IMG/VR virus record: IMGVR_UViG_3300028800_000015
Coordinates: 1 to 50,210 of that record
DNA from: a virus
Strand: one strand, 5' to 3'
Length of the DNA stretch: 50,210 nt
Shown: piece after piece, positions 19,764-40,389 of the stretch
Position numbering within the stretch: the stretch's first letter is position 1
How the letters are laid out: each line of letters starts with the position of its first letter
Position numbers and translations under genes: made by a program
The notes under the pieces: model-generated
What the model saw: the letters and a program-made list of their open reading frames with translations, nothing else
Database searches by the model: none
Told to the model about the DNA's origin: nothing

Positions 19764-20849
19764 TTACGCCGGGTTGGTGCTGTGGTCCGGGTCGCTCGAC
19801 GGGCTCGGGGTCACCAGCGGCGCCACGCCACCGGAGACACCGCTCAAGTCGACGCTGTGGCCGCCGATGGTCACGCTGTCCGCGCCACCCGCGTCCGCGT
19901 TGCCGTTGACGCCAGCGATGAACACCGCCGCCAGAGGCTGGTCGAGGTAGATGGCCGAGGCGCGAGTGGTGTCGGTACGCCATGACTCACGGGGGCCACC
20001 GTTGGGGCCGTTGCCCTCGCCGTACATCGGCGTGGCGCTCAGCGGACGCTCGTCCGCGATCCCACCAACGACCTTGCGCTGGAGCACGACCGCACACGAG
20101 GGCGCGTAGGTCGAGAGCCGCCACGAAGTGACGACGTCCAGCGTGAGGAACTTGTTGGGGAGCTTGCCGGTGTACTGCAAGTTCTCGTCCGCGATGTTGC
20201 CGATGTAGGGCTTGGTGACCTCGTCGCTGTCGAGGAAGTCGGTCTCGGTCTCGGTGCTGATGATGAGCGTGTCCGCGATGTAGCCGAACTTCTGCTTGTT
20301 GCCACCAGTCGAGCCGTCCGCGCCCACGTTCTTCACGAGGTAGCGGGCGCCGTTGACGTCCTGACGAATGTGCGAGCCGTCGCCGCCCCAAGCGTTGTCG
20401 GTCACGAGGACCTGCACCTGAGAGTTGGCGACGAGAGCTGAGAAGAACGCATCTTCCCACGCTCGTACCATCGTGTTGCGGATCTGCGTGATCTGCGTGT
20501 TGACGACGTCGACCTGGTTGCGGTCACGCATCGTCTTCGAGACTCGCAGGCCGAGAGCCCGACGAACCACACGGGCGACCAACGGAGTGCCGAGGCTTCC
20601 GTTGGTGACCGGGATCTCGCCGTACTCTTCGAGCACGGCCGGGTCGTCGTTGCTGAACAGCGGGGTGCTCTGGTAGTACAGCACCGCACCGGACGGCGCG
20701 TCCTGACCCGTGCGAAGGACAGAGTCCACGAGGAACATCTGGTCCATCATGTCGAGGATGCGCCGAGGGATCAGGGTCGGGCTCTTGAGGAGCGAGTTGA
20801 CCGTGATCCGCGGGCCATCCTGCACGCTGATGATCGTGGTACCAGCCAT
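19764..20849 (-). CDS. Major capsid protein
   Basis: This 361-residue protein is the probable major capsid subunit of HK97 type. It has RILDMMDQMFLVDSVL, LGLRVSKTMRDRN and AVVLQRKVVGGIADERPL segments, which match actinophage capsids, and its position after protease/scaffold and decoration genes fits. The C-terminus is Gly/Ser/Pro-rich and may be flexible. AAGGA lies eight bases before the ATG, and a hairpin follows the stop. Confidence 0.87.
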   Translation of the reverse strand: MAGTTIISVQDGPRITVNSLLKSPTLIPRRILDMMDQMFLVDSVLRTGQDAPSGAVLYYQSTPLFSNDDPAVLEEYGEIPVTNGSLGTPLVARVVRRALGLRVSKTMRDRNQVDVVNTQITQIRNTMVRAWEDAFFSALVANSQVQVLVTDNAWGGDGSHIRQDVNGARYLVKNVGADGSTGGNKQKFGYIADTLIISTETETDFLDSDEVTKPYIGNIADENLQYTGKLPNKFLTLDVVTSWRLSTYAPSCAVVLQRKVVGGIADERPLSATPMYGEGNGPNGGPRESWRTDTTRASAIYLDQPLAAVFIAGVNGNADAGGADSVTIGGHSVDLSGVSGGVAPLVTPSPSSDPDHSTNPA

Positions 20850-20888: not shown

Positions 20889-21374
20889 TTAGGCCAGCTT
20901 GATGAGCTTGACGAGTGCGACGACGCCACCAGCCGTACCGCCTGGCTGGACGCAGATGCCGCACACTGCCTCTTCGGCGTCGGTCCCGCTGACCCACTTA
21001 CGAGCAGAGCCCGAAGCAGCAGCACAGACCCGGTCGCCGTAGTTGACCGCGCCGGCCGCGAAGAGAATCGGCACGACCCCGTTGCTGAAGACCGCAGTCT
21101 GCGGCGTCGGGATGCCGGTGTTCGCGAACGGGAAGTTCTGCGAGTCGGTGCCAGCCGCAGCAGCGGCCTGGTTGGCCGCCGTGACGCAGGACTTCTGCGA
21201 GACACCGAGCACGTTGACGGCCGCGTCAGTCGCGACCTTGATGCCCTGGAGGCTCGGGTCGGTCGTGGCCGTGGTCGACGGGATGACGAAGACGCCGGCC
21301 GCGAGGTTCGCGTCGACTGCCTCGAAAACGTCGTCCGCGCCGCGGCTGCGGCGCTGGATCGAGGTGACTGCCAT
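20889..21374 (-). CDS. Capsid decoration protein-like
   Basis: This 161-residue protein is Ala- and Gly-rich with several short strands, typical of small decoration proteins (DUF2190-like) that bind the outer capsid. It lies directly upstream of the major capsid gene. AGGA is seven bases before the ATG. It has five cysteines, which is unusual for a phage head protein and could stabilise the particle. Confidence 0.65.
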   Translation of the reverse strand: MAVTSIQRRSRGADDVFEAVDANLAAGVFVIPSTTATTDPSLQGIKVATDAAVNVLGVSQKSCVTAANQAAAAAGTDSQNFPFANTGIPTPQTAVFSNGVVPILFAAGAVNYGDRVCAAASGSARKWVSGTDAEEAVCGICVQPGGTAGGVVALVKLIKLA

Positions 21375-21409: not shown

Positions 21410-22639
21410 CTAGCGGCCGAACTGGTTGTCCCACGCCTCAAGCATTTCGGCGTCGGGGTCCTCGTCGCCCGAGACCGAGCCGTAGTGGCCGACCTCGTTG
21501 GACATGTCGATGGTGCCCTCGGCCGCCGTCAGGAACTGACGCAGCACGTCAGCGACGTTGACGTCGGCTTCGCCCGAGTTGCTCAGGTCGATGACGACGT
21601 CGTCGGGCCGATTGAGGATCGGCTCGGCCAGGTCGAGGAGGTGCGGAGGCACACCCTTGCCAAGCGCGACGTCGCGGAACGCGGTCCACTCGGCGTCGGC
21701 CATCCGGCGCAGCGCCTCACGGGCACGGGCGTCGGCCGCCGTCGCGAGCGAGTTGGCGAGCTCGATCTCTCGGGTGTCGCCACTGGCGTTGGCGCGACGC
21801 TGGCGCCGCCTGCTGAGGTCGCTCACGTCGGGCTCTCCGTCCGGGTCGTCGTCGTCGTCCAGATCCGCGTCACCGAGATCGGTGTCGGCATCTGCATCTG
21901 CATCGTCGTCGTCATCGTACTCAGAATCGGCGCCGTCTGCGTCGTCCGAGTCGCTGTCGAGGTCGTTCAGGTCGATGCCGAAGTGCTCGGCCCACGCATC
22001 GAGCTCGGTGCCGGACATTTCGTCGATGTCCGTCTCGGTGTAGTCGTCGATGTTCGCCTTGAACTCAGGCTTGCGGAGCTTCGTGCGCATCGGATTCTCC
22101 TGGTCGCTGTAGGTGTGCTGTGACAAGTCAAGCACACGTTCGCCGTCGTACGTCGAGAGGTCGACTGGCTTCCACGGCTCCATGCCAGTCACCTGTGGGT
22201 CGAGTGTCCCGAGCACATGAACGAGCTTGGGGCCATCGGGGTCTTCGCGGATTCGTGCGCTGACACCGAGATTCGGGTTGCGCACGACGGCCCGAGCATC
22301 GCGCCGGCTGTCGAACTCCAGCTTGCCGTACAACCCTGGCTTCTCACCGGGCGCGGCTAGCCGCAGAGCAGTGACCTGTGCGCGGTAGCGCTCCGGGTCC
22401 ATTGTGTGGGCGTTGTCCTTGTCCGCTAGCAAGAACGGCGTCTGGTCCATGTGCTTCGCCTGGTACGCCTCGATTAGCTTCGAGAGGTAGGCGTGACTGA
22501 AGTCGACGGTGGATCGCTTGCCAGTACGAGTGGTGTACTCGATCGTCTTCTCGGGCAGGATCTGCTTCCAGTAGACGAGCTTCGACTCGCGGCTGAAGTC
22601 GCTGGTGACGGCGGGCGTCAGGAGCTGTCGGTTCTTCAC
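21410..22639 (-). CDS. Head maturation protease fused to scaffold-like region
   Basis: This 409-residue protein resembles the capsid maturation protease plus scaffold proteins of actinophages. Residues about 45-170 carry the protease domain with HAYLSKLIEAYQAKHMDQTPF, LLADKDNAHTM and NLGVSARI. A long Asp/Glu-rich stretch (about residues 225-270) and a helical C-terminus follow, as expected for scaffold that is digested on maturation. The GTG start has no clear Shine-Dalgarno. Confidence 0.75.
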   Translation of the reverse strand: MKNRQLLTPAVTSDFSRESKLVYWKQILPEKTIEYTTRTGKRSTVDFSHAYLSKLIEAYQAKHMDQTPFLLADKDNAHTMDPERYRAQVTALRLAAPGEKPGLYGKLEFDSRRDARAVVRNPNLGVSARIREDPDGPKLVHVLGTLDPQVTGMEPWKPVDLSTYDGERVLDLSQHTYSDQENPMRTKLRKPEFKANIDDYTETDIDEMSGTELDAWAEHFGIDLNDLDSDSDDADGADSEYDDDDDADADADTDLGDADLDDDDDPDGEPDVSDLSRRRQRRANASGDTREIELANSLATAADARAREALRRMADAEWTAFRDVALGKGVPPHLLDLAEPILNRPDDVVIDLSNSGEADVNVADVLRQFLTAAEGTIDMSNEVGHYGSVSGDEDPDAEMLEAWDNQFGR

Positions 22640-22674: not shown

Positions 22675-23796
22675 TTACTTGGCCTTCTCCTGACGGAGTA
22701 ACTCCTTGGTCGCTGCGATCTGTCGCCGTACCTGATCCTTGTTAGACGTGAAGGCTAGTTGACGCTGGAAACTAGCGAGATTGCCTTCCAGCAACTTGAT
22801 CCGCGTGGCACTTGGACCTTCCTTTGACTCCTGGCTCGATGACAGCCGACCCTTGATGTGCTGACGAACCTCTGCGTCTGAGAACGCCGGCTTACCGTTG
22901 TGGATGCGTGACTGCGCAACGCGAGCCTCGGCAAGAGAGCCAGGGACGTGCACGTTGACCTTGCGGCCCTTGGTGTCGTGGCCGACGATGATGTGCCCCG
23001 CAACACCCTGGTACGTCTTCGGCGTGACGCGAGTGCGAGCCTCGCCATCCTTCGGCGCCTTCGGTGCTTGGAGAGGCTTCGGCGCGAATCGAGATTCGCC
23101 CTTGAAGTCCTTGCCCGTCTCGGAGTCCGGCTTGAGGTGACGCTCGACGCCGTTGACGTCGCGGTACGAGACGTGACCGTCCGGGTGCTTCTGCGCCGCG
23201 AGGGTCTTGCCACCGATCTCGATGTGGCCGGCCACCGGCTTGCCACCGCTCGGCAGACGTTCCCCTGGCGTGACGCCGCCATTGAGAGCCTTGACCCGCT
23301 GCTCTTGGGTCATGCCGGGACGTACGGCCGCCTTGTTGGGGTTGTTGTCCCGACGGTGGAGTTCCTGGATCGCCGCAGTACCACTGTCGTTGTTGCGGTT
23401 GAGGTAGGCGTGGTCGAGCAGCTCCTTGTCGGTCATCGAACCGTAGTCAGGATTCGAGCGGTTGAGCATCCGGGTCGGGACCTGGAGTCGCTGGCCTTCA
23501 GTTTCGATGTGCGACTCGGGCTCCATGAGCCCACCGTCCTCGTCCACCGACCGGGACATCGGGGTGACCTTGTCGACCTTGGCGTGGTGGTTCGGCGGCA
23601 TCTTCGCCATATTGCTCGGAACGTGCAGCTTACCCGCGCGATCCTTGTGCAGATGCACCGTGATTCCTGAGCCACCGCCCACCTTGTGGTGCGACTTCAG
23701 AGCGACAGCAGCGGCGTTCTCGGGAATGTAGCCGTGCTTCCACTTCGAGCCATCCTTGCCGAGATCAATGACCTCGACGAAACGCTCCTGGCTCAT
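22675..23796 (-). CDS. Head-region protein with N-terminal WKHGYIP tag
   Basis: This is a 373-residue hydrophilic protein of unknown enzymatic function. It begins with R5-F6-V-E-V-I10-D11-L12 and then W19-K-H-G-Y-I-P25, a signature shared with the 568-residue neighbour. The middle is rich in Gly, Pro, His and Lys with repeated G-H-I-E/V-I-G-like strands around residues 180-270, and the end is a charged helix. The ATG overlaps the 66-residue gene stop. It probably enters the capsid as an internal or ejected protein, but no catalytic motif is visible. Confidence 0.75.
   Translation of the reverse strand: MSQERFVEVIDLGKDGSKWKHGYIPENAAAVALKSHHKVGGGSGITVHLHKDRAGKLHVPSNMAKMPPNHHAKVDKVTPMSRSVDEDGGLMEPESHIETEGQRLQVPTRMLNRSNPDYGSMTDKELLDHAYLNRNNDSGTAAIQELHRRDNNPNKAAVRPGMTQEQRVKALNGGVTPGERLPSGGKPVAGHIEIGGKTLAAQKHPDGHVSYRDVNGVERHLKPDSETGKDFKGESRFAPKPLQAPKAPKDGEARTRVTPKTYQGVAGHIIVGHDTKGRKVNVHVPGSLAEARVAQSRIHNGKPAFSDAEVRQHIKGRLSSSQESKEGPSATRIKLLEGNLASFQRQLAFTSNKDQVRRQIAATKELLRQEKAK
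23723..23742. repeat. 20-base identical repeat encoding the WKHGYIP signature (copy 1)
   Basis: The bases 23723-23742 are identical to 25602-25621. They encode WKHGYIP in both the 373- and 568-residue genes. Identity at DNA level suggests recent duplication, gene conversion or strong constraint. Confidence 0.85.
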
Positions 23797-23993
23797 GGCT
23801 TGCCCTTCAGGTTCTTGACTCGACGCCGCGCTGCTTGGACCAGCGTAGACGACTTCGGCTTCAGCCGCTCGGCCGACCTGGAGACGAGAGTGCCCGTGAT
23901 CGTGTCCGGAGGTACACAGCCCGTCGACCGGCCGGCTTCGATCTCCTTGGCGAGATTGATCTCAGCGGCGCACCGTTGCTCGACTGTGCTCAC
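23793..23993 (-). CDS. Small basic protein between tagged head proteins
   Basis: This encodes 66 residues, with an N-terminal helix (E-Q-R-C-A-A-E-I-N-L-A-K-E-I-E) and a basic C-terminus ending in KGKP. The family is unknown. The GTG start at 23993 overlaps the stop of the metallopeptidase gene (GTGA), and its own stop overlaps the next start (ATGA). Such tight coupling to both tagged proteins would fit a partner, chaperone or immunity-like role, which is only inferred. Confidence 0.65.
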   Translation of the reverse strand: MSTVEQRCAAEINLAKEIEAGRSTGCVPPDTITGTLVSRSAERLKPKSSTLVQAARRRVKNLKGKP

Positions 23994-25696
23994 TTCTTCC
24001 AGCCCTTCTCGGCGATGATGGCGTCGATCGCCTTGGCGATCGGCTCGAACTCCTCTGGGGTCCACTGAGAGAAGCCCTGCAAGTCATTATCCTTCGATCC
24101 ACGCAGAGATACAAGGTCCTTGATCTCAGACTGCATCTTGGGATCACCAGAGCGGGTGGCGATGTACTGTGCGTAGGCGCGTGCCCACTGCTCGTGTGGC
24201 TGGAGCATGTAGCCGGCGTAGGTGAGACCGCTTCCCTGAACTCGACCGCTCATCCGGTAGCCGCCCTTGCCAGTGCGCTCGCGGTCTCGCAGTTCCTTGA
24301 TCTCGGTCGAGTCGGAGATCGCCTTCCACCAGTTCTGCCAGGTGGTCGGAACGTCGCCAGCGTCCGAGCGGGTAGCTCCGAGCATCGAGAAGGTCGGAGA
24401 GTGCAGCGCCGCGCGGGTGCTCATGTAGTGAACGCGCCGGTTGACGGGGCGATCCGTCCCAGCGTCGCTGTGGAGCGGAATGTGGTCGAGCCAGTGACCG
24501 ACCTCGTGAGCCATCGTCGTAGCCTGGTGGTCGCCTTCAGTCGAGAGCGCGATGTTGTCTGCGGCCGGGTTGTTGGCGTGCCACGAATAACGTCCGTAGA
24601 AGCCGCGGGCGTTGCTCTTCTTCAGTGGAATCGGCACGAGCTCGCCGTCGCTGTGGACCTTGTCGATCGCCGCGAGCGCACGGCGGGCTCCGTCGTTGAT
24701 GACGTTGCTTGCCTTCGGAATGTTTATCGACTTCGAGACCGGATCGCCCTGCTTCGAGACGGACGCATACGCCGCCGCCTGGCGACTGCGCTCTGCCTCG
24801 GCACGGGTCCGCTTCGCCTCGCGCTTGTTGACGTAGTTCAGCACGCCGTGCTTGTCAGCGCCGAGGTCAATCGCCTGCTGAAGCACCTCTGGCGGCCACT
24901 GGTAGTCGTTGCGACCGTACTTCTCGGTTGCGTCGTCCAAGAACTTCTGGAGCTTGGCCGCCTGCTCGGGATCTTCCCGCTTCGCTCGCGCGGCTTCACG
25001 CGCTTGGCGGTCGGCGTACTGCTTCTCGATCCTACGTTGGTTCGAGAGCGTCGCCGCCACCTCGCGCTTTTCGAGGTCCTGCTTGTTCGCGCGGGTGTAG
25101 AGCTGCTCGTGTGCCGCGATGCGTTGCGCTGCGTACTCCTCCGGGGTGCTTGCACCGCCGTACGGATGGAACGGTTGCTCGCCGCTCTTGTGCCGAGCCA
25201 GCGCACGGTTGATGTTGTCTCGGATCGCCTGGTCACGCTCTTCGATCTGCTGGCGCACCTTCACGTGAAGGGCAGCACGTTCGTCTCCGAGACGTGCCAG
25301 GTGCTCCAGCTTGCCGTCCGAGATCTTGTGGTAGCCGCCCTGCTCCCTGACGCTCTTCTGAAGTGACTTGATGTAGACAGCCTTCGTGACCTTCTTGCCC
25401 TGGACAGAGAACTCACCAGTCTCGGGCTCGGATGGCTTCGGTGCCGTCGGTGGCATAGCCTCCTTGGGCTTGACCTTCTCGACGGGCGACAGACCGAGTT
25501 CGTGCTGTCCCGGTTCGAGATTCCAGTGCTTGGCGCCGGCTCCGAAGAGCTTCTTCGCCAGTGCACCCTTGCGATTGGCGAGAGCCGTGGCTCGATCGAG
25601 CGGAATGTAGCCGTGCTTCCAGTGGTACGCCGTGCCGGCGACGTGGTGCTTGTTGACAGCCGCCAGGTCGATGAAGCGCTCGATGCCGCGAGCCAT
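23990..25696 (-). CDS. Internal-head protein with HEVGH metallopeptidase domain
   Basis: This 568-residue protein combines an N-terminal head-region signature with a zinc metallopeptidase motif. Residues 7-11 (RFIDL) and 26-32 (WKHGYIP) match the 373-residue neighbour. Residues about 125-330 are a long Arg/Glu/Gln/Ala-rich helical region, probably coiled coil. H397-E398-V-G-H401 (24494-24508), followed by W-L-D-H405, is a zincin HExxH site. GGGAG lies eight bases before the ATG. It is a good candidate for a protein packaged and ejected into the host, or a MuF-type effector. Its substrate is unknown; a third metal ligand was not identified with confidence. Confidence 0.8.
   Translation of the reverse strand: MARGIERFIDLAAVNKHHVAGTAYHWKHGYIPLDRATALANRKGALAKKLFGAGAKHWNLEPGQHELGLSPVEKVKPKEAMPPTAPKPSEPETGEFSVQGKKVTKAVYIKSLQKSVREQGGYHKISDGKLEHLARLGDERAALHVKVRQQIEERDQAIRDNINRALARHKSGEQPFHPYGGASTPEEYAAQRIAAHEQLYTRANKQDLEKREVAATLSNQRRIEKQYADRQAREAARAKREDPEQAAKLQKFLDDATEKYGRNDYQWPPEVLQQAIDLGADKHGVLNYVNKREAKRTRAEAERSRQAAAYASVSKQGDPVSKSINIPKASNVINDGARRALAAIDKVHSDGELVPIPLKKSNARGFYGRYSWHANNPAADNIALSTEGDHQATTMAHEVGHWLDHIPLHSDAGTDRPVNRRVHYMSTRAALHSPTFSMLGATRSDAGDVPTTWQNWWKAISDSTEIKELRDRERTGKGGYRMSGRVQGSGLTYAGYMLQPHEQWARAYAQYIATRSGDPKMQSEIKDLVSLRGSKDNDLQGFSQWTPEEFEPIAKAIDAIIAEKGWKK
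25602..25621. repeat. 20-base identical repeat encoding the WKHGYIP signature (copy 2)
   Basis: This is the second exact copy of the sequence at 23723-23742, lying at the start of the 568-residue gene. Confidence 0.85.
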
Positions 25697-26226: not shown

Positions 26227-26859
26227 CTACTTCTTCTTGGGTCGGAGCGAGACTCCACTGGAAGCCGCCTTGACGAACTTCTTCTTGCCGTACTTGCGCC
26301 GGCCGATCCAAGCAGCGAGCGCGCCGGGGTTGCTGGCACCCTTGGCCTTGAGCTGACTGGAGAGCTTGCCGAAGCCGACGTAGGAGAGGTCGATCAGCGG
26401 AGCGACTTCTGCGTACGCCAGCGACGTCTCGTTGCCCTTCGGCTCATGGTTCTTGAGCGCCGCCTTGGCCGCTGCCTTCTTCAGCTTGATGCGCTTGCCA
26501 CCCTTGCCGAACGGCGCAGCCTGCTTGCCGCCGAAGTTCGCGATGCCTGCCATGTCTACCGTCCTTGAGTGATCGTGCACTGCGGCCTTCGCACGTAGCG
26601 CAGCCCATTGTGCCAGAGCAGCCGTAGCCGCTGCTCGAACGGCCGGATTCTTGCTGGTTGCCGCCCAGACCTCCATGCGTGACTTCGCCTCGGCGATGTC
26701 ACTACTGGTGACGTGGCCGCCGTGCTTGCGGGCGATCCCACGAGCCACACCGCGCACGTACGGAGGCAAGCCGCCGTTCTTCGCGACCCAGTTGTCGCTC
26801 TTGCTGGTGCTCAGCGGGGATTCGTCGATCGGTCGGCCGCCAGGAGAGATCCCGGCCAT
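26227..26859 (-). CDS. Head-region protein with DNWVAKNGGLPPYV motif
   Basis: This 210-residue protein has two modules. Residues about 20-95 carry DNWVAKNGGLPPYVRGVARG and a helical A-T-A-A-L-A-Q-W end, a module I know from Streptomyces phage head-region proteins. The second half has IDLSYVGFGKL, then ALAAWIGRRKYGKKKF and a basic tail, another module of those proteins. Function is not established; it may be packaged or bind DNA. The next gene follows without a gap. No strong Shine-Dalgarno is seen. Confidence 0.7.
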   Translation of the reverse strand: MAGISPGGRPIDESPLSTSKSDNWVAKNGGLPPYVRGVARGIARKHGGHVTSSDIAEAKSRMEVWAATSKNPAVRAAATAALAQWAALRAKAAVHDHSRTVDMAGIANFGGKQAAPFGKGGKRIKLKKAAAKAALKNHEPKGNETSLAYAEVAPLIDLSYVGFGKLSSQLKAKGASNPGALAAWIGRRKYGKKKFVKAASSGVSLRPKKK

Positions 26860-27167: not shown

Positions 27168-28076
27168 TCAGTCGAGGTAGCCTGCGGTCGGACGGTCATC
27201 GAACTCCGGGTGCTCGGTGAAGAACGTCAGCAGCGTTGCACAGTGCCACATGACAGCCGCCAGGTGTGACGAGCCGAGCTCGGTGTCGAAGTTCTCGCCG
27301 TTCCACCAGGCGATCGCGTGCCGCTGAAGAGCAGCGTACGACTTGCTCCACTCGAAGCCCTGGCGCCAGTTGTTCGGTGGGTACTTCTCTGCCGTACGCC
27401 CGTAATGCTCGGCCAGCGCGGTCAGTGCCTCGGCCGGGATCAGGTCGTGCCGAGCGAGCTTGACGCCCTTGAGTCCACCCGTGACTGACTTCGAGATCCA
27501 CTCACCGTGGATGATCTGGGCGACCGGCTCGGCCTTCTCCTCGACGAACACGTCTTCGGCGCAGCAGTCGGCTGTCAGGCAGTCACAACCATGCAGTGCC
27601 TCGTCGAGACTGAGGATCGGAATGTGGATCGCTGTGGCAAGAGCCGTCTCAGCGAGAGCACCACTGGAGTCACGCCAGCCGTCCAGCACGACGACAGCAT
27701 CGGCGTACTTGGCGATCCACTGTGTGTCGTCAGCCAGCGCCTCGCGCACACTGAAGCCCTCACGTTCGGCGACTTCGTACTCATTACCGGTATCGGACTT
27801 CTCGAAGCCGTTGCCGTAGACCATCCGGTCACGCTCGGCGGGCGAGAAGACGTGGTAGCCAGCAGCGCGGAGCTTCGCCGCTCCTGCGTCGAACGCCGGG
27901 AAGTTGAAGTCGGGCAGACCGCGCATCGGGCCGGCGAGATAAACCTTCCTGATGCCAGCGATTGTCTTCGGGCAACCAGTGCGGTCAGTCGGAGAAGTCG
28001 TGATCGACGTGAGATCCTGGTACTCGGTTGCGCTCGTACTGGCGACGGGCTTCTGCTGCTTCTGCTTGCGCGGCAT
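27168..28076 (-). CDS. Fusion of DUF4406 deoxyribosyltransferase-like and DUF5664 dNTP diphosphohydrolase-like domains
   Basis: This 302-residue protein appears to join two nucleotide enzymes. Residues about 43-160 match DUF4406, related to nucleoside 2-deoxyribosyltransferases: YLAGPMRG (46-53), NFPAF, a D132-G-W segment and the putative nucleophile E143 in S-G-A-L-A-E. Residues about 203-295 match DUF5664, the family that includes MazZ-type dATP/dGTP diphosphohydrolases: KLARHDLIPAEAL, KYPPNNWRQG, RHAIAWWNGE261-x2-D264 and HLAAVMW. A Cys-rich linker (C164, C166, C171, C172) connects them. Such a protein could reshape purine deoxynucleotide pools. No PurZ partner was found. GAGG lies seven bases before the ATG. 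Confidence 0.78.
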   Translation of the reverse strand: MPRKQKQQKPVASTSATEYQDLTSITTSPTDRTGCPKTIAGIRKVYLAGPMRGLPDFNFPAFDAGAAKLRAAGYHVFSPAERDRMVYGNGFEKSDTGNEYEVAEREGFSVREALADDTQWIAKYADAVVVLDGWRDSSGALAETALATAIHIPILSLDEALHGCDCLTADCCAEDVFVEEKAEPVAQIIHGEWISKSVTGGLKGVKLARHDLIPAEALTALAEHYGRTAEKYPPNNWRQGFEWSKSYAALQRHAIAWWNGENFDTELGSSHLAAVMWHCATLLTFFTEHPEFDDRPTAGYLD

Positions 28077-28281
28077 CCTTGGTCCTCTTCTCGATCTCGC
28101 GGTTGATGTACCAGACGGCCTTGCGAAGATCCTCGATCGCGTCGGACTTCAGGTCGCAGCGCCAGATGTACTTGACGGCGTTGCCGAGGTTGAAGTTCAT
28201 GTGCTCGACGACGGCGATGCACTCGACACCACTCGGGTGCCCTGCGTAGTGCTGAGGATGGTTGACGGCATCGTCAGACAA
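27985..28281 (-). CDS. DUF3310 family protein
   Basis: This 98-residue protein matches DUF3310: VNHPQHYAGHPSGVECI near the N-terminus and NFNLGNAVKYIWRCDLKSDAIEDLRKA in the middle, then a charged helix. The family is often annotated as a nucleotide kinase-like protein but its role is unproven. The TTG start at 28281 has AAGGAG seven bases upstream; ATG starts upstream would run into the phosphoesterase gene. It overlaps the fusion gene by 92 bases in another frame, a large overlap for this genome. Confidence 0.8.
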   Translation of the reverse strand: MSDDAVNHPQHYAGHPSGVECIAVVEHMNFNLGNAVKYIWRCDLKSDAIEDLRKAVWYINREIEKRTKDAAQAEAAEARRQYERNRVPGSHVDHDFSD

Positions 28282-29329
28282 CGTACTGCTCCTTCTCCAG
28301 TCCGATCTCTTCGGGCTTCGCCAGGAAGATCTTGTACTGGCTCGCGACGTGGCCGGACTCGGGCTCGATAAAGTGCAGTCGCTGACTCGGAAGAGCCGCC
28401 GCCGCCATGCCGTCTCGGGCGTAACGGTTGTCACTTTCGGTCGAGCCAGTCTGGTAGACCGCGCCGATTCCGTTCGCCATGGCCCACTCGGCGTGGTTGT
28501 GATAGTGGCCGACGTAGACGTCGCGGAAGGGCCAGTTGTACGCACCAGAACGCCAGCGGTTGCAGTGGTTGACGATCGTCATGGGCGACGCGAAGCCGCC
28601 TCGGCCGATCTCGTCGCCGTGGATCAGCAGCGCGCGGTAGTTACCGATCTCGATGCGCTGGATATCCTCGGACGTGTCCGACCAGGTGACGTGACCGAGG
28701 TCTGCGCAGAACGCCGACGCCAGCTTGTACGTCATCCGGTCGGCGTTGTCGCTCTTCGGTACTGCATCGCGCTTCGAGCCGAGCCGGCCGTGGTTGCCCC
28801 ACTCACCGATGACTGTGACGTCGTGGTACTCGGCCGCCGCGAAGCGCACGACGTGCTCGATCAGCCGCGCCACGTAGACGTACTGGTCGAAGAGCTCCTT
28901 GTCGATCTCGTACGGTTGCGTCGGGAAGTTGAACAGACCCTCGATCATGTCACCGCCGAGAGCGATCGTCACAGCGTCGACAGGGTGGTCAGCGCGCTGG
29001 ATCTCGGTGATCCGGTGTGCCTTCGACAAGAAGAGCTTGACGCGAGCCGTCATCACCTCGGAGTTGTACGAGGTGGTCAGCTTCGAGCCTTGCCAATCGG
29101 TGAGGTGCCACAGGCTGTGTTCAGGCTTGCCCTTCTTGGTGCTGCGCCGCGGGCGGACGATCTTCTCGGGCGGCCCGAACGCTGACGCCGCTGCCAGAGC
29201 GCCTTCGTACGCTGCCTCGGCGAGCGTTGCCTTCTTGTCCTTGGCCTTGGCGAGTTGCTGCGCCATCAGCCGCATGGCCTGGCGCATCTGCTGGCGATCA
29301 AGGTCATCGTCCAAGCGCAACGACTCCAT
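28274..29329 (-). CDS. Calcineurin-like metallophosphoesterase
   Basis: This 351-residue enzyme belongs to the metallophosphoesterase superfamily, which hydrolyses phosphodiesters or phosphomonoesters with two metal ions. The metal ligand motifs appear in order: H-L-T-D-W-Q-G, G-G-D-M-I-E-G, G-E-W-G-N-H-G-R, H-G-D-E-I-G and V-G-H-Y-H-N-H. A helical N-terminal 50 residues precedes the domain. The GNHGR variant and nearby gene content recall MRE11-like nucleases, but the substrate is unknown. GAGG is seven bases before the ATG. It sits unusually among head genes. Confidence 0.85.
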   Translation of the reverse strand: MESLRLDDDLDRQQMRQAMRLMAQQLAKAKDKKATLAEAAYEGALAAASAFGPPEKIVRPRRSTKKGKPEHSLWHLTDWQGSKLTTSYNSEVMTARVKLFLSKAHRITEIQRADHPVDAVTIALGGDMIEGLFNFPTQPYEIDKELFDQYVYVARLIEHVVRFAAAEYHDVTVIGEWGNHGRLGSKRDAVPKSDNADRMTYKLASAFCADLGHVTWSDTSEDIQRIEIGNYRALLIHGDEIGRGGFASPMTIVNHCNRWRSGAYNWPFRDVYVGHYHNHAEWAMANGIGAVYQTGSTESDNRYARDGMAAAALPSQRLHFIEPESGHVASQYKIFLAKPEEIGLEKEQYVV

Positions 29330-29331
29330 GC

Positions 29332-29601
29332 CTAGTCCTCCCGGTAGCAGTTACACAGCTCGCTGCGATGCTTGTTGATTGCATCGCTACTAACGCGAGA
29401 GACCTTCCTTGAGAGTACGGGCGAAAGTTGCGCCGCGCTCCACTTCGGATTGTCGATCGCGGCCCGGATCTCGGCCGAGTTCGGATGGTCCTTCAGCATC
29501 ATACCGACAGGACAGAGTTGCTTCGGTGGGGCGGCGAGAAGTTCGACGAGCTCGGGGTCATCGGTGTAGTTCCCGACGGAGTGCAGCGGTGGTCGAGCCA
29601 T
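29332..29601 (-). CDS. Small HTH-like DNA-binding protein
   Basis: This 89-residue protein has a Pro-rich start, then C-P-V-G and a predicted helix-turn-helix: EIRAAIDNPKWSAAQLSPVL followed by a helix ending in A-I-N-K-H-R, and a C-x-C end. Such proteins occur in actinophages as HTH regulators, and a link to packaging is conceivable because of the location near terminase and portal. GGGAG lies eight bases before the ATG. The regulatory role is inferred. Confidence 0.6.
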   Translation of the reverse strand: MARPPLHSVGNYTDDPELVELLAAPPKQLCPVGMMLKDHPNSAEIRAAIDNPKWSAAQLSPVLSRKVSRVSSDAINKHRSELCNCYRED

Positions 29602-29628: not shown

Positions 29629-30366
29629 TCAAGCGGTCTTGCGAGGATACAACCTACGACCTGACGTGTCCAGCAGAATCGGCTTCACGGCGTCATTGAC
29701 CCAGCCAGCGCCAGGGATCGGCGGACCAGCCGTACAGCCGCAGTTGGGGTGAACCGCACCGGGCCAGCCGAGGACGGTGCCCTGGCTCGCGCGGAAGTTG
29801 TGGCCGTTGGCCTTGATGCACTCGATCTCGTTGTTCAGTAATGGATCGAGGTACCAGCCGAGCACGTCACCGAAGAACTGGACGGCCTTGTCAACGTCGA
29901 GTGCCGCCTTCATGCGGCCAGCCTGAGCAGCACGGTGGCGCTCGTAGAGCAGGCTCTCCTGGCTCAGCGCCGCCCGGTGCGGCTTGCCTTCCTTCTCGGC
30001 CTTCTCCAGCCTCTCAGCCGCCGCCAGGACGTACGCAGCGCGCATCATCAGCTCTTGCTGCGCCGCCGCCGCTTCTGCCGGTCCAGCGCCTTCTGCGGCT
30101 GGTGCGTGGGCACTCTCGCGTGCCAGCCCAGCGACTGCCAACAGGTTCGGCATCGAGATCTTCGGAAAGAGTGATGAGAGTGCTGACGCCAGACCGACTG
30201 TCGTCGCCGCTGTCAGTAGCAGCAGCGCGATGTCTCGGATCTTATGGTTGTCCTGCGGGGGTGGCTTGACCGTGTGAGTCGCCTGGATTGGCGTCGTCTG
30301 CGGCCCTTGTGACTCGGTGGCAACAGGGCCAGCCAGGTCGATCTCATGGAAGCCGACGCGAGTCAC
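29629..30366 (-). CDS. MuF-like head morphogenesis protein
   Basis: This 245-residue protein resembles the C-terminal part of phage Mu F-like minor head proteins, which bind the portal. It has a NEIECIKANGH segment and H-P-N-C-G-C-T-A near residue 213, the family's metal-like signature. A hydrophobic stretch near residues 45-75 could be a membrane-active or buried helix. The N-terminus contains F-H-E-I-D10-L-A, resembling the signatures of downstream head proteins. The GTG overlaps the upstream stop (GTGA). Confidence 0.75.
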   Translation of the reverse strand: MTRVGFHEIDLAGPVATESQGPQTTPIQATHTVKPPPQDNHKIRDIALLLLTAATTVGLASALSSLFPKISMPNLLAVAGLARESAHAPAAEGAGPAEAAAAQQELMMRAAYVLAAAERLEKAEKEGKPHRAALSQESLLYERHRAAQAGRMKAALDVDKAVQFFGDVLGWYLDPLLNNEIECIKANGHNFRASQGTVLGWPGAVHPNCGCTAGPPIPGAGWVNDAVKPILLDTSGRRLYPRKTA

Positions 30367-30575
30367 TCGCCGTCCTCTGTTGCGAGCGCATCTGCATCCT
30401 CGGCATCCTCATCTTCTGTGGCGTAGCCAGCCGCCACCTGGTCCTTCAGCATCGAGCGGTACGCCTGGTTGGCGCGCTTGCGAAGGTCATCGAGAATGTC
30501 CGGGTTGTACGCCGAGGAGACGGCTACCTCGACCTTGCCGTTGGCTGAATCCTCGATCGTGACCTTGATGCTCAT
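30363..30575 (-). CDS. Small acidic protein between portal and MuF
   Basis: This encodes 70 residues: a beta-rich N-terminus, a helix with DDLRKRANQAYRSML, and an acidic tail of Glu/Asp/Ala. The family is unknown. The ATG overlaps the portal stop (ATGA) and its own stop overlaps the MuF start (GTGA), so it is tightly coupled to both. Confidence 0.7.
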   Translation of the reverse strand: MSIKVTIEDSANGKVEVAVSSAYNPDILDDLRKRANQAYRSMLKDQVAAGYATEDEDAEDADALATEDGE

Positions 30576-32134
30576 GCGAGCACCGGAGCACCGACGAGTG
30601 ACTTGGCTGACGGAGGCGCGGGCGCGGGCGCCACAACCGGAGCAGGTGCGGGTGCGGCCGGCGGAATCGAGCCCTTCGTCGCAGGCTTCGCGAGCTTGCC
30701 TGTCTGCAACGCCGACGCCGCCGCCTGAGTGGCGCCAGCGATCGCCGCCGTACCCTGCCCGACCGGACTGGCACCAGCAGCACTAGCCTGTGCCGCCGCT
30801 GCCTGAGCCTTGGCCGCCGCCGCCTCGAAGTCCTTCTCGACCTGTGCACCGTCGAGACCGATGTAGTTGCCGACGAGAGCCGCAAGCTGGCCGATGAAGG
30901 TGTCAGGGATCAGAGCGCTCGCGCTCCGGGCCATCACCATCTTCTCCAGCAGGTCGACGCTGATCTGCTTGTCGATGTCGTTGAGCGGCTCGAACTTGTA
31001 GTACGGCACGGGCGCCGTCTTGCCGAAGTTGGCGCGCACCAATGGAGCGAACAGGTCGTTACGGACGCTGTACTCGATCTCGCGGGTCTTTGCCTCCTCC
31101 ATCTGGAGGAAGAAGTCGCTGGCGTCCGACGACAGTGCGTACGAACCAGTTCCCGCCGCCGCTGAGTCGGTGAGGTTCAGGAAGCCAGCGAGGCAAGCAG
31201 AGGTACCAGCGTTGTCGAGCCACTGGATCGCCTGCATGAACTGATCGGCACCCTTACCGCTGACATCGAGCTGTGTGATGCCGACAGAGTCGACACCGTT
31301 GGGTACGGCGACAGGGATGACGCCGCTGCTCTTCAGCTTCGCGATCTGACGCGCCACCTGGCTCGCCACTGCGATGTCGTTGGCCTGGACAACCGTCCGC
31401 GGCAGTGACACGTTCTCCAAGAACTGAAACCAGAGGAAGAGGATCTTCTGCTTGGTCTTCCAGGCCCAGTAGGCGATCTCCATGTCGGAGGTACCGTTCA
31501 GCGGGTCGCGCCGAGTGCCGTGGATATAGACGAAGGCTCGCGGCGCCTTGATCTGGATGGGCCAGTGACCCTTCGTGATCTCGGGGCCGACGTAGTACGC
31601 CTCCTGCTCAAAGCCGGCGAAGCCGCCGTGCTTCGGGTGACGCATCAGACGGCACGTTGTCTGCGGGCGCCACGCGACCTTGTCATACACGACCTTGCCC
31701 TCGAACTGGCCGGTGCCCTTGGCCCAGACCTTCTCGAAGTACGCGCGCTTGTAGGTGAAGCCGGTCGTCATGCGGTCGACGATCATGTGCAGCGGGTCCT
31801 TGGACCCTCCTGCGAAGTGGTCGGCTTCCCAGTAGTTGTTCAGCCAGTCACAGATGGTGTTGTTGGTGTCACCTGTGCCGGGGACGATCGAGCGAGTGGC
31901 GGACATGACGGGGAGGACCAGCACGTTTTCGAGCTGACGCGCCTTGTAGTCCTTCTGCATCATTTCAAAGAGGTCGCGAGCCTCCCAGTCACCGTAGTCG
32001 AAGATCAGCCCGTCGCGGTAGCCGAACATCAGGCGATCGAACCAACCGAACGATGAGCCCTCTTCCTTACCGAAGTCGCCCTTGTTTGGCAAGCGGAGGC
32101 TGTCGTCCTTGACGAGCTTCAGAACGTTAGCCAC
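30572..32134 (-). CDS. Portal protein (DUF935-like)
   Basis: This 520-residue protein is the probable portal, the dodecameric ring through which DNA enters and leaves the head. Features fit the DUF935 (Mu gp29-like) portals: an early GWFDRLMFGYRDG, WRPQTTCRLMRHPKHGG, WKTKQKILFLWFQFLENVS and a helical, Ala/Pro-rich C-terminus from about residue 425. AGGAG is six bases before the GTG. It overlaps the large terminase gene by eight bases and precedes MuF, the classic order. Confidence 0.87.
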   Translation of the reverse strand: MANVLKLVKDDSLRLPNKGDFGKEEGSSFGWFDRLMFGYRDGLIFDYGDWEARDLFEMMQKDYKARQLENVLVLPVMSATRSIVPGTGDTNNTICDWLNNYWEADHFAGGSKDPLHMIVDRMTTGFTYKRAYFEKVWAKGTGQFEGKVVYDKVAWRPQTTCRLMRHPKHGGFAGFEQEAYYVGPEITKGHWPIQIKAPRAFVYIHGTRRDPLNGTSDMEIAYWAWKTKQKILFLWFQFLENVSLPRTVVQANDIAVASQVARQIAKLKSSGVIPVAVPNGVDSVGITQLDVSGKGADQFMQAIQWLDNAGTSACLAGFLNLTDSAAAGTGSYALSSDASDFFLQMEEAKTREIEYSVRNDLFAPLVRANFGKTAPVPYYKFEPLNDIDKQISVDLLEKMVMARSASALIPDTFIGQLAALVGNYIGLDGAQVEKDFEAAAAKAQAAAAQASAAGASPVGQGTAAIAGATQAAASALQTGKLAKPATKGSIPPAAPAPAPVVAPAPAPPSAKSLVGAPVLA

Positions 32135-33938
32135 GTGGGTCTCCTAGCAGGTCGCCTCGCAAGCCGCCAGCGCCTCGGAAGTCGCTGCCAGTACCGCCGA
32201 ATCCTGGTGCGGCTGCGAGGTCGTTGTCGCCGAACGGATCATACCCACCATAGCGCACAGGCTGCGCTCCCTCCCCGCTCATGTCTCCCCACTCCAGCGG
32301 GTCGATAGTCTGCTGGATCGCCTCGACCCAGAACGCCTGGATCACGGCGTCAGCGCGGTCAGTCGACCGGCCGAGCCGCTTGCGGGCCTTGTCCTTGCCT
32401 TCGACCTGGATGATCGCGTTGGCGTGGATCTCGTACTGGAGACAGGACAGCTCGTGGATCAGTCGTTCGTCATCAGGTAAGCAGATGTTCGAGCCGCGGC
32501 TTGGATCGAGCAGCTCGCGCATGTGCCACCAAGCGGCCGAGCGGTCGTTACGGAAGCGGAACTGGCCGGTCAGATCCCTGCGGTGGCTCTGGGCGCCAGC
32601 GATGAAAGCGTGTGCGCGGCCCTGGATCGTGCCGTCGCGAGCGTAGCGACGCAGAGCGTCGTACACGCCAGCACCGACGCCGATGCCGTCTACGACCGCT
32701 AGTGACTTCGGCTCCTGAAGGAACGGGGCGACGTTGTCGGCGATCTCCATGGTGTCCGCCACCCGATAGGCGTGCAGCGGCTCGATGATGTTGGCGTAGC
32801 GCACTGCCACGATCGTCTCGTCCTCGCCACCGTAGGCAACGTCGACCCCGACGACCTTCCGACCGGTACCGTCTGCGCGCTGCCAGGTGGTCAGGTCGCC
32901 TTGACCATCCATGGCATCGTGCCATCGCTCGACAGCTCGCTGGACCCAGCCGAGCGGGATGACACCGTCACTGGACTCCAGCGGGAAGTTGCCACGTACC
33001 TTGGCCGTGAAGATCGGGCTTGCCTGTGCACGCCGAGCGACGATCTCACCAAGTTCGTCTGGGGCGTGATCGAGCGCCGCAGTGTCGGGGATGCCACACC
33101 AGGACCGGATGCGCTCCTCGACCCAGAGCGGGGAGATCAGAAGCGGACGAAGGCGTAGCGGCACCCTCTCCTCACTGAACGGGATACCCTCGTGTCGCAT
33201 CAGTGCTGCTAGCAACGGATACTTGGGATTCGCCGGGTCATCGCCGATGATGGCGTCCTTGGTCATGTTCGGCGACCGCAGTCCGTCGAGGTGGATGACG
33301 TTCCAGATGCTGCCTGGCTTGCAGACCTCAGCGAAGTGCGAGCCAGGGTGGTCCGGGTTGCCGATAGCGAGCACTCGACAGTCTTCGTTGGTGACGAGAG
33401 CATCGACCTGGTCGAAGAGATCAGACATCACACCGCACGCCTCGTCGATGACTACCAGCACGTAGCGCTCGTGGATTCCTTGGAACGCACTCTGCTCGTA
33501 ATCAGCCGGCTTACGTCCGTACCCGATGAGCTGCGAACCGATGTACCAGGTCGGGTAACCGGCGCGGTTGATCCGACCGGGCAGCTTGTGCTTGCTGTGC
33601 AGCTTGCCGACCTCTCGCCACATGATCGCCGAGACCTGTGCCGCTGTGGGCGCTGTCGAGACGACGAACGCTTCACCGGGAGGATGGCTGTCGATCCACC
33701 AGGTGATGATGTTCGCCGCGATAAAGGACTTGCCGAGGTCGTGAGCGCTGTACGCGGCCGTGTACCGATTCTTGGCTACGCTCCTCGCGATCTGGCGCTG
33801 TGCTGACCAGAGGAAGCCCTTCGTACGGTCTCTTACCCATGCGATCGGACGCGAGACGTAGTTACTCTTGGGGTTGTAGCGGTCAGCCAGCGCAGCGAAT
33901 GGCTGTGCTTGGTTCGAACTCAGCTCGGTGACGGTCAC
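32127..33938 (-). CDS. Terminase large subunit
   Basis: This 603-residue protein is the DNA packaging motor. Walker A is degenerate, A-H-D-L-G-K70-S71, and Walker B is V-L-V-V-I-D-E-A about 90 residues later. The nuclease domain shows G-V-D-V-A-Y-G-G-E-D-E and a later S-T-D-R-A-D-A-V. The last 40 residues are Gly/Asp/Pro-rich. The start is uncertain: the GTG at 33938 is used, a TTG lies one codon before it, and neither has a strong ribosome binding site. The small terminase lies about 11 kb upstream in transcription order, an unusual separation. Confidence 0.92.
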   Translation of the reverse strand: MTVTELSSNQAQPFAALADRYNPKSNYVSRPIAWVRDRTKGFLWSAQRQIARSVAKNRYTAAYSAHDLGKSFIAANIITWWIDSHPPGEAFVVSTAPTAAQVSAIMWREVGKLHSKHKLPGRINRAGYPTWYIGSQLIGYGRKPADYEQSAFQGIHERYVLVVIDEACGVMSDLFDQVDALVTNEDCRVLAIGNPDHPGSHFAEVCKPGSIWNVIHLDGLRSPNMTKDAIIGDDPANPKYPLLAALMRHEGIPFSEERVPLRLRPLLISPLWVEERIRSWCGIPDTAALDHAPDELGEIVARRAQASPIFTAKVRGNFPLESSDGVIPLGWVQRAVERWHDAMDGQGDLTTWQRADGTGRKVVGVDVAYGGEDETIVAVRYANIIEPLHAYRVADTMEIADNVAPFLQEPKSLAVVDGIGVGAGVYDALRRYARDGTIQGRAHAFIAGAQSHRRDLTGQFRFRNDRSAAWWHMRELLDPSRGSNICLPDDERLIHELSCLQYEIHANAIIQVEGKDKARKRLGRSTDRADAVIQAFWVEAIQQTIDPLEWGDMSGEGAQPVRYGGYDPFGDNDLAAAPGFGGTGSDFRGAGGLRGDLLGDPRG

Positions 33939-33958
33939 CAAGCGATTGTAAGTCCTAG

Positions 33959-34027
33959 CGGGGCACCGAGGACTCGAACCTCGGACTTCGGGAGCGACCC
34001 GAGCGACCTACCGTTGGCCTATACCCC
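33959..34027 (-). tRNA. tRNA-like gene (anticodon probably CGC)
   Basis: The minus strand folds as a cloverleaf of 69 bases. The acceptor stem pairs GGGGTAT with GTGCCCC (including G-U pairs), the D stem GGCC with GGTC, the anticodon stem CTCGG with CCGAA, and the T arm CGAGG-TTCGAGT-CCTCG is canonical. The loop centre reads CGC after T33, which would be Ala. There is only one base between acceptor and D stem, a three-base variable loop and an unusual base after the anticodon, so it could be a divergent or decayed tRNA. It sits just upstream of the terminase start. Confidence 0.55.
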
Positions 34028-34870: not shown

Positions 34871-35061
34871 AGGTCTGCTCCGTTCCTTCGTAGGGTGGAT
34901 CTGAGATTGAGCACCGCGCGCTTGTCGCCCGGTGTGCTGCCAGTGAAGATGGGCATACCTCCCTTGGGACTTAGCAAGCGGTAGTGACCGTTCTTCAGGG
35001 TTATGGACCAGCCCTGGTCGGACAGTTTGTTGAGGATCTCCTGGAGCGATCCTCGCTTCAT
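34867..35061 (-). CDS. HicA-like small protein
   Basis: This 64-residue protein looks like the HicA mRNA-interferase fold: an N-terminal helix (LQEILNKLSDQGWSI), a strand with G-H-Y-R-L-L containing the likely catalytic His, and S-T-P-G-D-K-R-A ahead of a C-terminal helix with R-R-N-G. No HicB-like antitoxin is next to it. The start overlaps the glycosyltransferase stop (ATGA). Related lone genes occur in actinophages; whether this one cleaves RNA is unknown. Confidence 0.7.
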   Translation of the reverse strand: MKRGSLQEILNKLSDQGWSITLKNGHYRLLSPKGGMPIFTGSTPGDKRAVLNLRSTLRRNGADL

Positions 35062-35999
35062 TGCGAGTAGGCCCACGACTCGATGAACAGTCCACCTGGC
35101 GGTGGTCGAAGAGCGTCCGCCATCTTGGCGTAGTGCCTTGCAGTAGCGGAGCGACCTGATGCCAGGTGCAGATGCTGGAGCTGACGCATAGGTTCAGCGC
35201 GTTCCCAGTTCGTCAGTTCAACCGCCTCTTCGAGCCAGTGCTGAGCCTCGTTGTTGTCGACGCCCATCAGTAACTTGCCGAGTTCGTATGCGGCCTGTGC
35301 AGTCTCTGGCTTCCAGCCATCGGTGCATCCCAGCCGTTCCCGGTACATAGTTCGTGCCATGTCAAGGTCACCGAGATCTCGGTACTCGTTGGCGATGTAG
35401 AAGAGGGTCCGCGGACTCTCGTCGCCATCATCGAGCATCGACGACATGATGCGAAGGTTGCGACGTGGATCTGACGGCTTCCCGTTTGGCCGGTGCTCGA
35501 CCCAGACGGTCTTGTTGCGTACCGACCGACCATAGGCGACTGCGATGGTCTCGTGCACGCGACCTTCCCAGCGCAGACCAGCTTCGCGCCGAATCAACCG
35601 CTCGCGGTCAAAGCAAAGAGTGACTTCGCCGAGAGCGCCGATCATGCGGTATTCGCAAGAGACTGCGTCGATGATGTTGGCCGACATGACCGCACTACGG
35701 CTCAGCATCGAGTTGATCGCCATGGCTGCCTCAGTCGGCAAGTGGTCGTCAGCATCGAGCCACAGAATCCAGTCGCTGGTGCAGAACTCGAAGGACAGAT
35801 TGCGTGCCCACGCGAAGTCATCACGCCACGCCGTTGTCGCGACCTCGGCGCCGTACTCCTCGGCGATCTCCACCGTGGCATCCGTCGAACCAGTGTCGAG
35901 GACAACGAGCTCATCACAGCAGATGCTCGCTTCTTCGAGCACGTTGGCAATCCTGTCCGCCTCATTACGGACGATCATGGCGAGACTCAGGGTCGGCAT
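35058..35999 (-). CDS. Family 2 glycosyltransferase with TPR-like C-terminus
   Basis: This 313-residue protein belongs to the GT2 (GT-A fold) glycosyltransferases that move a sugar from a nucleotide donor. It shows A-M-I-V-R-N-E-A at the start, L-D-T-G-S-T-D-A-T around residue 35 and the metal-binding L-D82-A-D84-D85. The C-terminal 110 residues have helical repeats with Y-R-D-L-G-D-L-D-M-A-R and similar TPR-like units. It has no membrane segment. It may glycosylate virion proteins, DNA bases or a host target; context does not decide. It overlaps both neighbours. Confidence 0.85.
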   Translation of the reverse strand: MPTLSLAMIVRNEADRIANVLEEASICCDELVVLDTGSTDATVEIAEEYGAEVATTAWRDDFAWARNLSFEFCTSDWILWLDADDHLPTEAAMAINSMLSRSAVMSANIIDAVSCEYRMIGALGEVTLCFDRERLIRREAGLRWEGRVHETIAVAYGRSVRNKTVWVEHRPNGKPSDPRRNLRIMSSMLDDGDESPRTLFYIANEYRDLGDLDMARTMYRERLGCTDGWKPETAQAAYELGKLLMGVDNNEAQHWLEEAVELTNWERAEPMRQLQHLHLASGRSATARHYAKMADALRPPPGGLFIESWAYSQ

Positions 36000-36184
36000 G
36001 GACAACTCGATCCGCGCTTGTGCGCCTCCTCGTTGGGGTCGGGCAACGTGCCGACGCGATGAAACCACTCGCGGTCGATCAGAGTCTGCTGGCGCCGACC
36101 TGTCGCCGGCCGATCGAGCCAGTCACGAAGGTTCTCAGCGGCGTGCTCGGGCACGCGAAGCACGACGGTAACGAAGTGATCCAT
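35987..36184 (-). CDS. Small hypothetical protein (65 residues)
   Basis: This encodes 65 residues with a strand-rich start (MDHFVTVVLRVPE), a helix, and a C-terminal S-S-C-P-C motif. Its family is unknown. The ATG overlaps the upstream stop (ATGA) with GGAG seven bases before it. It overlaps the glycosyltransferase start by 13 bases. Confidence 0.65.
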   Translation of the reverse strand: MDHFVTVVLRVPEHAAENLRDWLDRPATGRRQQTLIDREWFHRVGTLPDPNEEAHKRGSSCPCRP

Positions 36185-39114: not shown

Positions 39115-40389
39115 TCAGACTCGGCCGTCGACGGCAACCAGCCTCTTCGCCAGCCACTCAAAGACTGGCACCGCGACGGAGTTACCCATCATGCGGTAGC
39201 GGTGGCTATCGGCCATTTCGCGGCCATCGTGGCCGTAGCGCGTCCAGTCATCAGGGAAGCCCTGAAGCCGCTCGCACTCCCGCGGGGTGAGACGTCGCAC
39301 TCCAGTCTCCAGTGAGCCAGGATCGGCGATCAGCGTCGTTGCGCGCACGTCTCCGGTGTTGTCTGCGAGGTTGAGAGTGTTGGCGAAGTCCTCCTCGACC
39401 CACGTCTCGAAGTCTTCGGTGTTCTGCGCACGTCGGCCCTTGCGAAACGTCGCGACCAAGTTGTCCGTACCGTCACCGCGAGGTGAACTGTGGCCGTGAT
39501 GGCCCATGCTTGCCGTCAGGGTCGATGCCACCTCACGACTCGCAGCGATCAGATGACCAGCTTGCGCCATGCCGTCGCTGACTCCTTGAGTCGTCAGCGC
39601 TCCAGTGACGAGCAACTGGCCGCCAGCAGCGCCTTCGGCATCGACTCGATAACCGCGCTTGCCGCCGCCCTGTAGGGTCGAAGTCACCTCGGAAGTAACG
39701 AGCAACTGACCAGCCACGGCCGTCTTGTCGTCGATACCAGCCGTCGTGAGTGTGGTCGCTACTTCTCGGGTCGGCTGGCTACGATGCGTAGCGCTTGGTC
39801 CAGCAGCGGTGGCAGAGTCCGGCCGCGCCGAGTGGCGCGAAGGAGGATTCCCTTGCACGCTCTCGTTGAGAGCCAATACTTCAGCGGCACTTCGGACGTC
39901 TCCACGACGTCCGACAAGGACGACACGACGGCGTCGTTGGGCCACTCCGAAATACTGCGCGTCGAGCACGCGCCAGGCGACGCCATACCCGAGGTCGGCC
40001 ATCGTTGCAACGACGGTGCCCATGTCCCGTCCGCCGCTCGAAGTAAGCGCGCCTGCAACGTTTTCCCAGACGAACCAGTCCGGCTGGCACTCGTCGACGA
40101 CGCGGGCGTAGTCGAAGAAGAGGCTGCTGCGTGAGCCATCCAGTCCAGCTCTTGCTCCAGCCACGCTGAGGTCTTGGCAGGGTGTGCCGCCGATGATGAC
40201 ATCGGCGCTACCTCGTCGGACATGGGTCTCCTTCAGGTCAGAAGCGATGTGAACGGTCGGCCAGTGATGGCGCAGCACCGACTGACAGTGCTTGTCCCAC
40301 TCGACCTGACCAATGATCGTGGCGCCAGCGCGCTCGAAGCCGAGGTCGATGCCACCGACACCGGAGCACAGTGATCCGACTCGCAGCAT
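39115..40389 (-). CDS. C5 cytosine DNA methyltransferase
   Basis: This 424-residue enzyme methylates cytosine at C5, probably to protect phage DNA from host restriction. The motifs occur in order: motif I around L7-C-S-G-V-G-G, motif IV G-G-T-P-C71-Q with the catalytic Cys, motif VI F-V-W-E109-N110-V, motif VIII Q-R-R-R-R-V-V-L-V-G and motif X G-N-S-V-A-V-P. Residues about 180-340 carry repeated E-V-A-T/S-T-L-T and T-S-T-L-Q-G-G-G units. No partner restriction nuclease is present. The ATG overlaps the upstream stop (ATGA). Confidence 0.93.
   Translation of the reverse strand: MLRVGSLCSGVGGIDLGFERAGATIIGQVEWDKHCQSVLRHHWPTVHIASDLKETHVRRGSADVIIGGTPCQDLSVAGARAGLDGSRSSLFFDYARVVDECQPDWFVWENVAGALTSSGGRDMGTVVATMADLGYGVAWRVLDAQYFGVAQRRRRVVLVGRRGDVRSAAEVLALNESVQGNPPSRHSARPDSATAAGPSATHRSQPTREVATTLTTAGIDDKTAVAGQLLVTSEVTSTLQGGGKRGYRVDAEGAAGGQLLVTGALTTQGVSDGMAQAGHLIAASREVASTLTASMGHHGHSSPRGDGTDNLVATFRKGRRAQNTEDFETWVEEDFANTLNLADNTGDVRATTLIADPGSLETGVRRLTPRECERLQGFPDDWTRYGHDGREMADSHRYRMMGNSVAVPVFEWLAKRLVAVDGRV

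Follow-up and report, generated by a model that had tools for sequence, protein, structure and literature searches.

The gene at positions 23990-25696 of IMGVR_UViG_3300028800_000015, a 50,210-base virus record that was analysed in full and is here called the window, probably encodes a gluzincin-type effector that is loaded into the capsid through a short N-terminal tag, ejected with the DNA and able to cleave a bacterial protein, a reading to which we assign a probability of about 0.6. It is supported by the domain family to which the C-terminal part of the protein belongs, the invariance of the predicted zinc ligands, a confident structural model, the position of the gene, the fusion of the same domain to MuF modules in relatives, and the occurrence of the tag on other effector-type proteins. 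We infer the following course of events. Residues 313-568 would bind zinc via H397, H401 and E502, with E398 as the catalytic base, and the tag (IDLA...YHWKHGYIPL) would dock the protein on the portal, MuF or scaffold within the prohead, thereby standing in for MuF, the module to which this domain is attached elsewhere, and working like the capsid-targeting sequence of T4. Ejected together with the phage DNA, the zincin would cut its bacterial target protein early in infection, in the service of takeover or counter-defence. The more novel part of these results is that the N-terminal signature recurs in other phages, on many effector-type proteins that are unrelated. Here the odds seem even to us that W-K-H-G-[WY]-I-P serves actinobacterial phages as a capsid-loading signal and marks out a polymorphic arsenal of effectors which are packaged in the head independently of MuF, the zincin of the window being an effector domain that moves between MuF-fused and tag-fused delivery.

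A predicted zincin domain shared with MuF and portal proteins

A preliminary description of this DNA had pointed to a 568-aa product with the sequence H397 E398 V399 G400 H401 W402 L403 D404 H405, and this open reading frame (ORF) was confirmed on the minus strand with an ATG start; its GC content by codon position (0.65/0.45/0.80) is as usual for coding DNA in the window. Taken alone, the HExxH motif is not significant, because 6% of proteins like this one contain it by chance after composition shuffling, and independent support was therefore needed. The C-terminal domain (residues 313-568; 23993-24760, minus strand, as are all parts of the gene given below) matches 'head morphogenesis' proteins of two Akkermansia phages in tblastn, and further relatives were collected by iteration through viral contigs, which gave nine loci first and then 156 confirmed relatives, of which 80 were kept. 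Retrieval required either HE[IVL]GH[YWM][VLI]D or [WF]AR[AS]YAQ[FY], one being enough, and E502 lies in neither pattern. Across 62 aligned domains H348, H397, E398, G400, H401, E502, A505, R506, Y508, Q510, W545 and F550 are invariant. Since H397, E398, G400, H401 and E502 are unchanged in all 62 homologues, the HExxH motif is meaningful, and its chance occurrence can be ruled out. HEVGH (residues 397-401; 24494-24508) is thus predicted to provide two zinc ligands and the catalytic glutamate. E502 (24191-24193), with which an E-x-[WFY]-A-R-x-Y helix begins, is likely the third ligand, judging from the alignment.

Structure prediction, which had been proposed as a check on the zincin fold and its third ligand, gave a divided answer: the model is confident and E502 is conserved, but the fold matches in the PDB are weak. 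AlphaFold, run on residues 313-568 with the 62-sequence alignment, returned a pLDDT of 89.0 and a pTM of 0.90, and placed HEVGH in helix 79-93 and E502 at the start of a separate helix, 188-204 (domain numbering). Both features of gluzincins, HExxH and a glutamate in a downstream helix (E502, the predicted ligand), are therefore present. In Foldseek only three matches fell below E 0.001, all of them viral 'head morphogenesis' proteins, the best with E 1.1e-12 and a TM-score of 0.72. Against the PDB, zincins lead the list (anthrax lethal factor, oligoendopeptidase F, MATCAP and M61), all at E 0.014 or above. As modelled, residues 313-568 represent a zincin-like phage domain family without a close solved relative. 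The window protein has no Pfam, PHROG or NCBIfam match above cut-off, and its sequence matches to the PDB are at chance level only; it has no match to Pfam ATLF (lethal factor type) at E <= 1, and it reaches 14.9 bits for Pfam LPD1 against a curated cut-off of 27, a weak similarity located around the E502 helix. A DNA-level search of phages gave no match.

The preliminary description had also suggested a wall target, i.e., the protein would be a cell-wall or envelope endopeptidase that aids DNA entry. Wall-degrading enzymes can indeed be borne by phage heads and tails, but the domain matches wall peptidases neither in fold nor in family, its PDB neighbours are protein-cleaving zincins, and the gene is located in the head module and not at the tail tip; such a role appears highly improbable.

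The kinship with MuF-type head effectors that had been proposed for the protein is borne out by its relatives, in most of which the same domain lies C-terminal to MuF or portal modules. Among 60 full-length relatives, Pfam detects Phage_Mu_F in 39, Phage_min_cap2 in three, Portal_Mu in two and Phage_portal in one, so that the zincin domain usually forms the C-terminus of a MuF head-morphogenesis or portal protein; LPD1 is matched by 17/60 (E <= 0.01). The window protein itself has no PF04233 or PF06152 match, MuF being a separate gene (29629-30366), and the WKHG tag occurs in no other of the 60 proteins. Between tag and domain, where the preliminary description had placed a coiled-coil-like region, it has a linker rich in A, E, K, R, Q and L (residues 111-310; 24767-25366), in which these residues make up 60% and G and P only 8%.

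The N-terminal tag and the proteins that carry it

The tag occupies residues 9-33 (25598-25672). As had been noted, the start of the protein is common to its neighbour, a 373-aa protein (22675-23796, minus strand) with the tag core WKHGYIP at 23722-23742: both begin with IDL...WKHGYIP. Searches for the tag found 55 distinct ORFs, 49 of which were left after removal of doubtful ones: three exact-motif matches of the form CYGWKHGWIPW (L057, L073, L082) and a 42-aa frame (L080) were dropped, as a relation to the tag is improbable, and a fragment (L043) and a near-duplicate of L081 (L083) were excluded from the counts too. W-K-H-G-[WY]-I-P lies within the first 35 residues in 39 of these 49 phage ORFs; W, H, G, I and P are either set by the pattern used in the search or close to invariant, and the K position holds K or R. 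A short, mostly N-terminal peptide is thus common to otherwise unrelated proteins, as in the T4 type of capsid targeting.

Behind or beside the tag, Pfam families of effector type are found, namely ADPrib_exo_Tox (four ORFs), the papain-fold deamidase Gln_amidase (four), LigT/2'-5' RNA ligase (two), Zeta toxin and GNAT, along with DUF7178 (five), PARP and ParB_N, and zincin domains too stand behind it. In contrast, the 53 untagged ORFs of the same loci, taken as a control, have structural and replication families, with portal, MuF, capsid, scaffold, terminase, HNH and similar ones accounting for 25 of the 36 families listed. Two proteins (L003, L004) resemble that of the window in their tag and in the position of their gene but end in a different zincin, distantly related to that of the window (profile comparison, probability 84%); a third zincin type (L015, L019) matches only in the surroundings of HExxH. 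Some contigs have up to four tagged genes. On two contigs with four WKHGWIP-tagged genes each (L020, L038) some of these directly adjoin one another, which suggests effector arrays. A tagged papain-fold protein (L011:333-1118) has the sequence LPGKHDQDSHG soon after the tag, which may be another motif associated with heads.

The tag alone gave no tblastn match against phages at E 10, probably because it is short, as the cultured Streptomyces phage LazerLemon has a variant of it (see below). In a bacterial genome collection it was found in two confirmed loci only, both in one metagenome-assembled genome. Four motif strings were absent from the open-access full texts searched, a coverage outside which most subscription papers and bioRxiv lie.

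Gene neighbourhood and competing explanations

The preliminary description had placed the gene between capsid protease and MuF-like genes. The MuF-like gene (29629-30366) stands, being 32% identical (E 7e-27) to LazerLemon gp7, a 'capsid morphogenesis protein', whereas the 'capsid protease' (21410-22639) is only a putative prohead protease-scaffold, with a conserved H78, GVSARI with S127, an acidic C-terminal part and no Pfam or PHROG family match. Its identity as a protease via gp4 of Gordonia phage Blueberry was considered and not supported. Further head genes are the portal protein (Portal_Mu; 30572-32134), assigned by Pfam/PHROG search and phage comparison, the terminase large subunit (32127-33941; phrog_2), a scaffold-like head protein (20889-21374; phrog_673) and the major capsid protein (19764-20849; phrog_1650 and phage comparison), all on the minus strand like the two preceding genes. 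With their counterparts in Gordonia and Streptomyces phages, the major capsid protein of the window shares about 41% identity and its portal protein about 36%, and from this the host is probably an actinobacterium.

Loci of the window lineage share the order terminase large subunit, portal, MuF, tagged gene(s), putative protease-scaffold, scaffold-like protein and major capsid protein, and the stretch from portal through MuF, tagged gene(s) and putative protease-scaffold to capsid is kept in L004, L061, L067 and LazerLemon. In LazerLemon the same slot is occupied by gp8 (L055:2371-5898), a protein of 1,175 aa that contains LPPGATGWKHGWIPVDD near residue 132 and ends in an ADP-ribosyltransferase domain (E 3.5e-13). 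A second tag-like stretch, FRYKHGWILINP, precedes this domain. In other lineages, contigs with tagged genes also encode a portal of SPP1 type or a capsid of HK97 type, in most cases no more than a few kb away. No PF04233 (MuF) gene was detected in their tag records, and a general partnership of tag and MuF is therefore not claimed.

These arrangements bear on the possibility that the zincin is a peptidase of assembly or maturation, which trims itself, the tag, MuF, portal or scaffold in the prohead or the producing cell and has no effector role in the next host. Zincin-like peptidases of polyvalent proteins, e.g., DdrB of phage P1, have been proposed to process the polypeptide (PMC5512222), and the fusion of the domain to portal or MuF in relatives would suit such a function. 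However, the window has a separate putative prohead protease-scaffold, and in close relatives the slot holds another kind of zincin (L003, L004) or, in LazerLemon, an ADP-ribosyltransferase, a poor fit to an essential maturation step. We thus regard a maturation peptidase as unlikely, albeit the strongest of the alternatives.

A motif that may be related to head maturation is [IV][DEQ]L[SAG], which was selected post hoc, after the data were viewed: each of six homologues of the putative protease-scaffold has 3-5 copies, against 0.16-0.26 expected, and in 11/49 tagged proteins it lies at most 25 residues upstream of the tag. It may be a candidate site of prohead-protease processing or docking. 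In the window, [IV][DE]L[SAG] is present repeatedly in the putative protease-scaffold (21410-22639) and is also seen near the N-terminus of MuF (29629-30366) and of both tagged proteins (23990-25696, 22675-23796).

The tagged protein could instead be a polymorphic toxin for competition, borne by the particle and disabling or killing competitor cells. A 66-aa ORF (23793-23993, minus strand) has a GTG start that overlaps the zincin stop codon, making it a possible accessory or immunity gene, and integrases occur in some tagged phages; yet an immunity role of this ORF is purely putative, neither the window nor LazerLemon has a tyrosine integrase, and the tag is rare in bacterial genomes, with its two confirmed loci in a single assembly. 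This reading is more doubtful still than that of a maturation peptidase. As integrases were found in four of the nine tagged-phage records, an argument from prophage lifestyle was dropped.

The effector reading has its own difficulties. In 10/49 proteins the tag and the predicted start are over 35 residues apart, tagged proteins that are not effectors exist (e.g., the short basic ones of L042 and L058), and the PDB fold matches of the domain model are weak, at E 0.014 or higher. All of this weighs against a head-loaded zincin effector, as does the consideration that these proteins might have the tag in common as a structural element which serves some other purpose.

Other genes complete the neighbourhood. 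Upstream of the zincin gene lies a protein (26227-26859, minus strand) that in phmmer is similar to tagged effectors of relatives (L061, L067, L081) over their N-terminal part, and between the MuF gene and the tagged genes 27168-29601 has ORFs of 89, 351 and 302 aa with a non-structural look. A tRNA-Ala gene (anticodon CGC; 33958-34027) is located directly upstream of the terminase gene. Farther away are genes for a family-2 glycosyltransferase (35058-36068), a C5 cytosine methylase (39115-40401) and a collagen-like repeat protein (40713-42725).

Implications

Besides defining a phage zincin family without a close solved structure, the proposed scheme would, if true, mean that a motif of about seven residues predicts which proteins a phage carries in its head and delivers to actinobacterial cells. 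Many genes that lie from portal to capsid and are now called 'hypothetical' would then become testable effectors, the tagged proteins would be a source of host-takeover or anti-defence enzymes, and the tag itself would be a natural loading signal for phage-mediated protein delivery.

Comparison with known systems

The nearest published systems found are MuF toxins, polyvalent proteins and MuF-VIP2 fusions. MuF proteins sit in the head, SPP1 MuF binds the portal, and some MuF proteins bear toxin domains, with a metallopeptidase domain in 20% of putative MuF toxins (PMC5576092). As in MuF polymorphic toxins (PMC3482391; PMC5576092), head-module genes here encode C-terminal toxin or metallopeptidase domains, and relatives of the window domain are MuF fusions, the same C-terminal domain being found behind MuF, min_cap2 or portal; the window protein, however, has no MuF domain, which is encoded separately, and starts instead with the short WKHGYIP tag. 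Likewise, the MuF-VIP2 fusions of Microbacterium phages Percival and Goodman (PMC7302621) are actinophage head-gene products with toxin-type enzymes and predicted virion components, but their toxin is an ADP-ribosyltransferase, fused to MuF and not tagged. Polyvalent proteins with zincin-like domains (PMC5512222) share the HExxH peptidase on phage proteins predicted to enter the host. The suggestion in the preliminary description that the window protein may be of this kind is not supported, since at least two effector domains per chain are needed, whereas it has a single recognisable, catalytic domain; its LPD1 score is also below cut-off. Zincins of the anthrax lethal factor type (ATLF) are the top fold neighbour in the PDB and share HExxH and the downstream glutamate helix, but at E 0.014 or higher, with a TM-score to the query below 0.4 and no ATLF family match for the window protein.

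In T4, a short N-terminal capsid-targeting peptide is found on unrelated ejected proteins (PMC9026906). The logic of the WKHG tag is likened to it because the tag is short, mostly N-terminal, shared, placed before unrelated enzymes and encoded in the head module; the T4 internal proteins and Alt likewise have a short common peptide before unrelated proteins in a tailed phage, and Alt is an ADP-ribosyltransferase, as is the C-terminus of LazerLemon gp8. The likeness is one of layout, with no sequence relation claimed, and packaging and cleavage of the WKHG tag are putative. Collectively, the evidence suggests that a common loading signal for phage-head effectors is a possible new element beside the known MuF-type systems.
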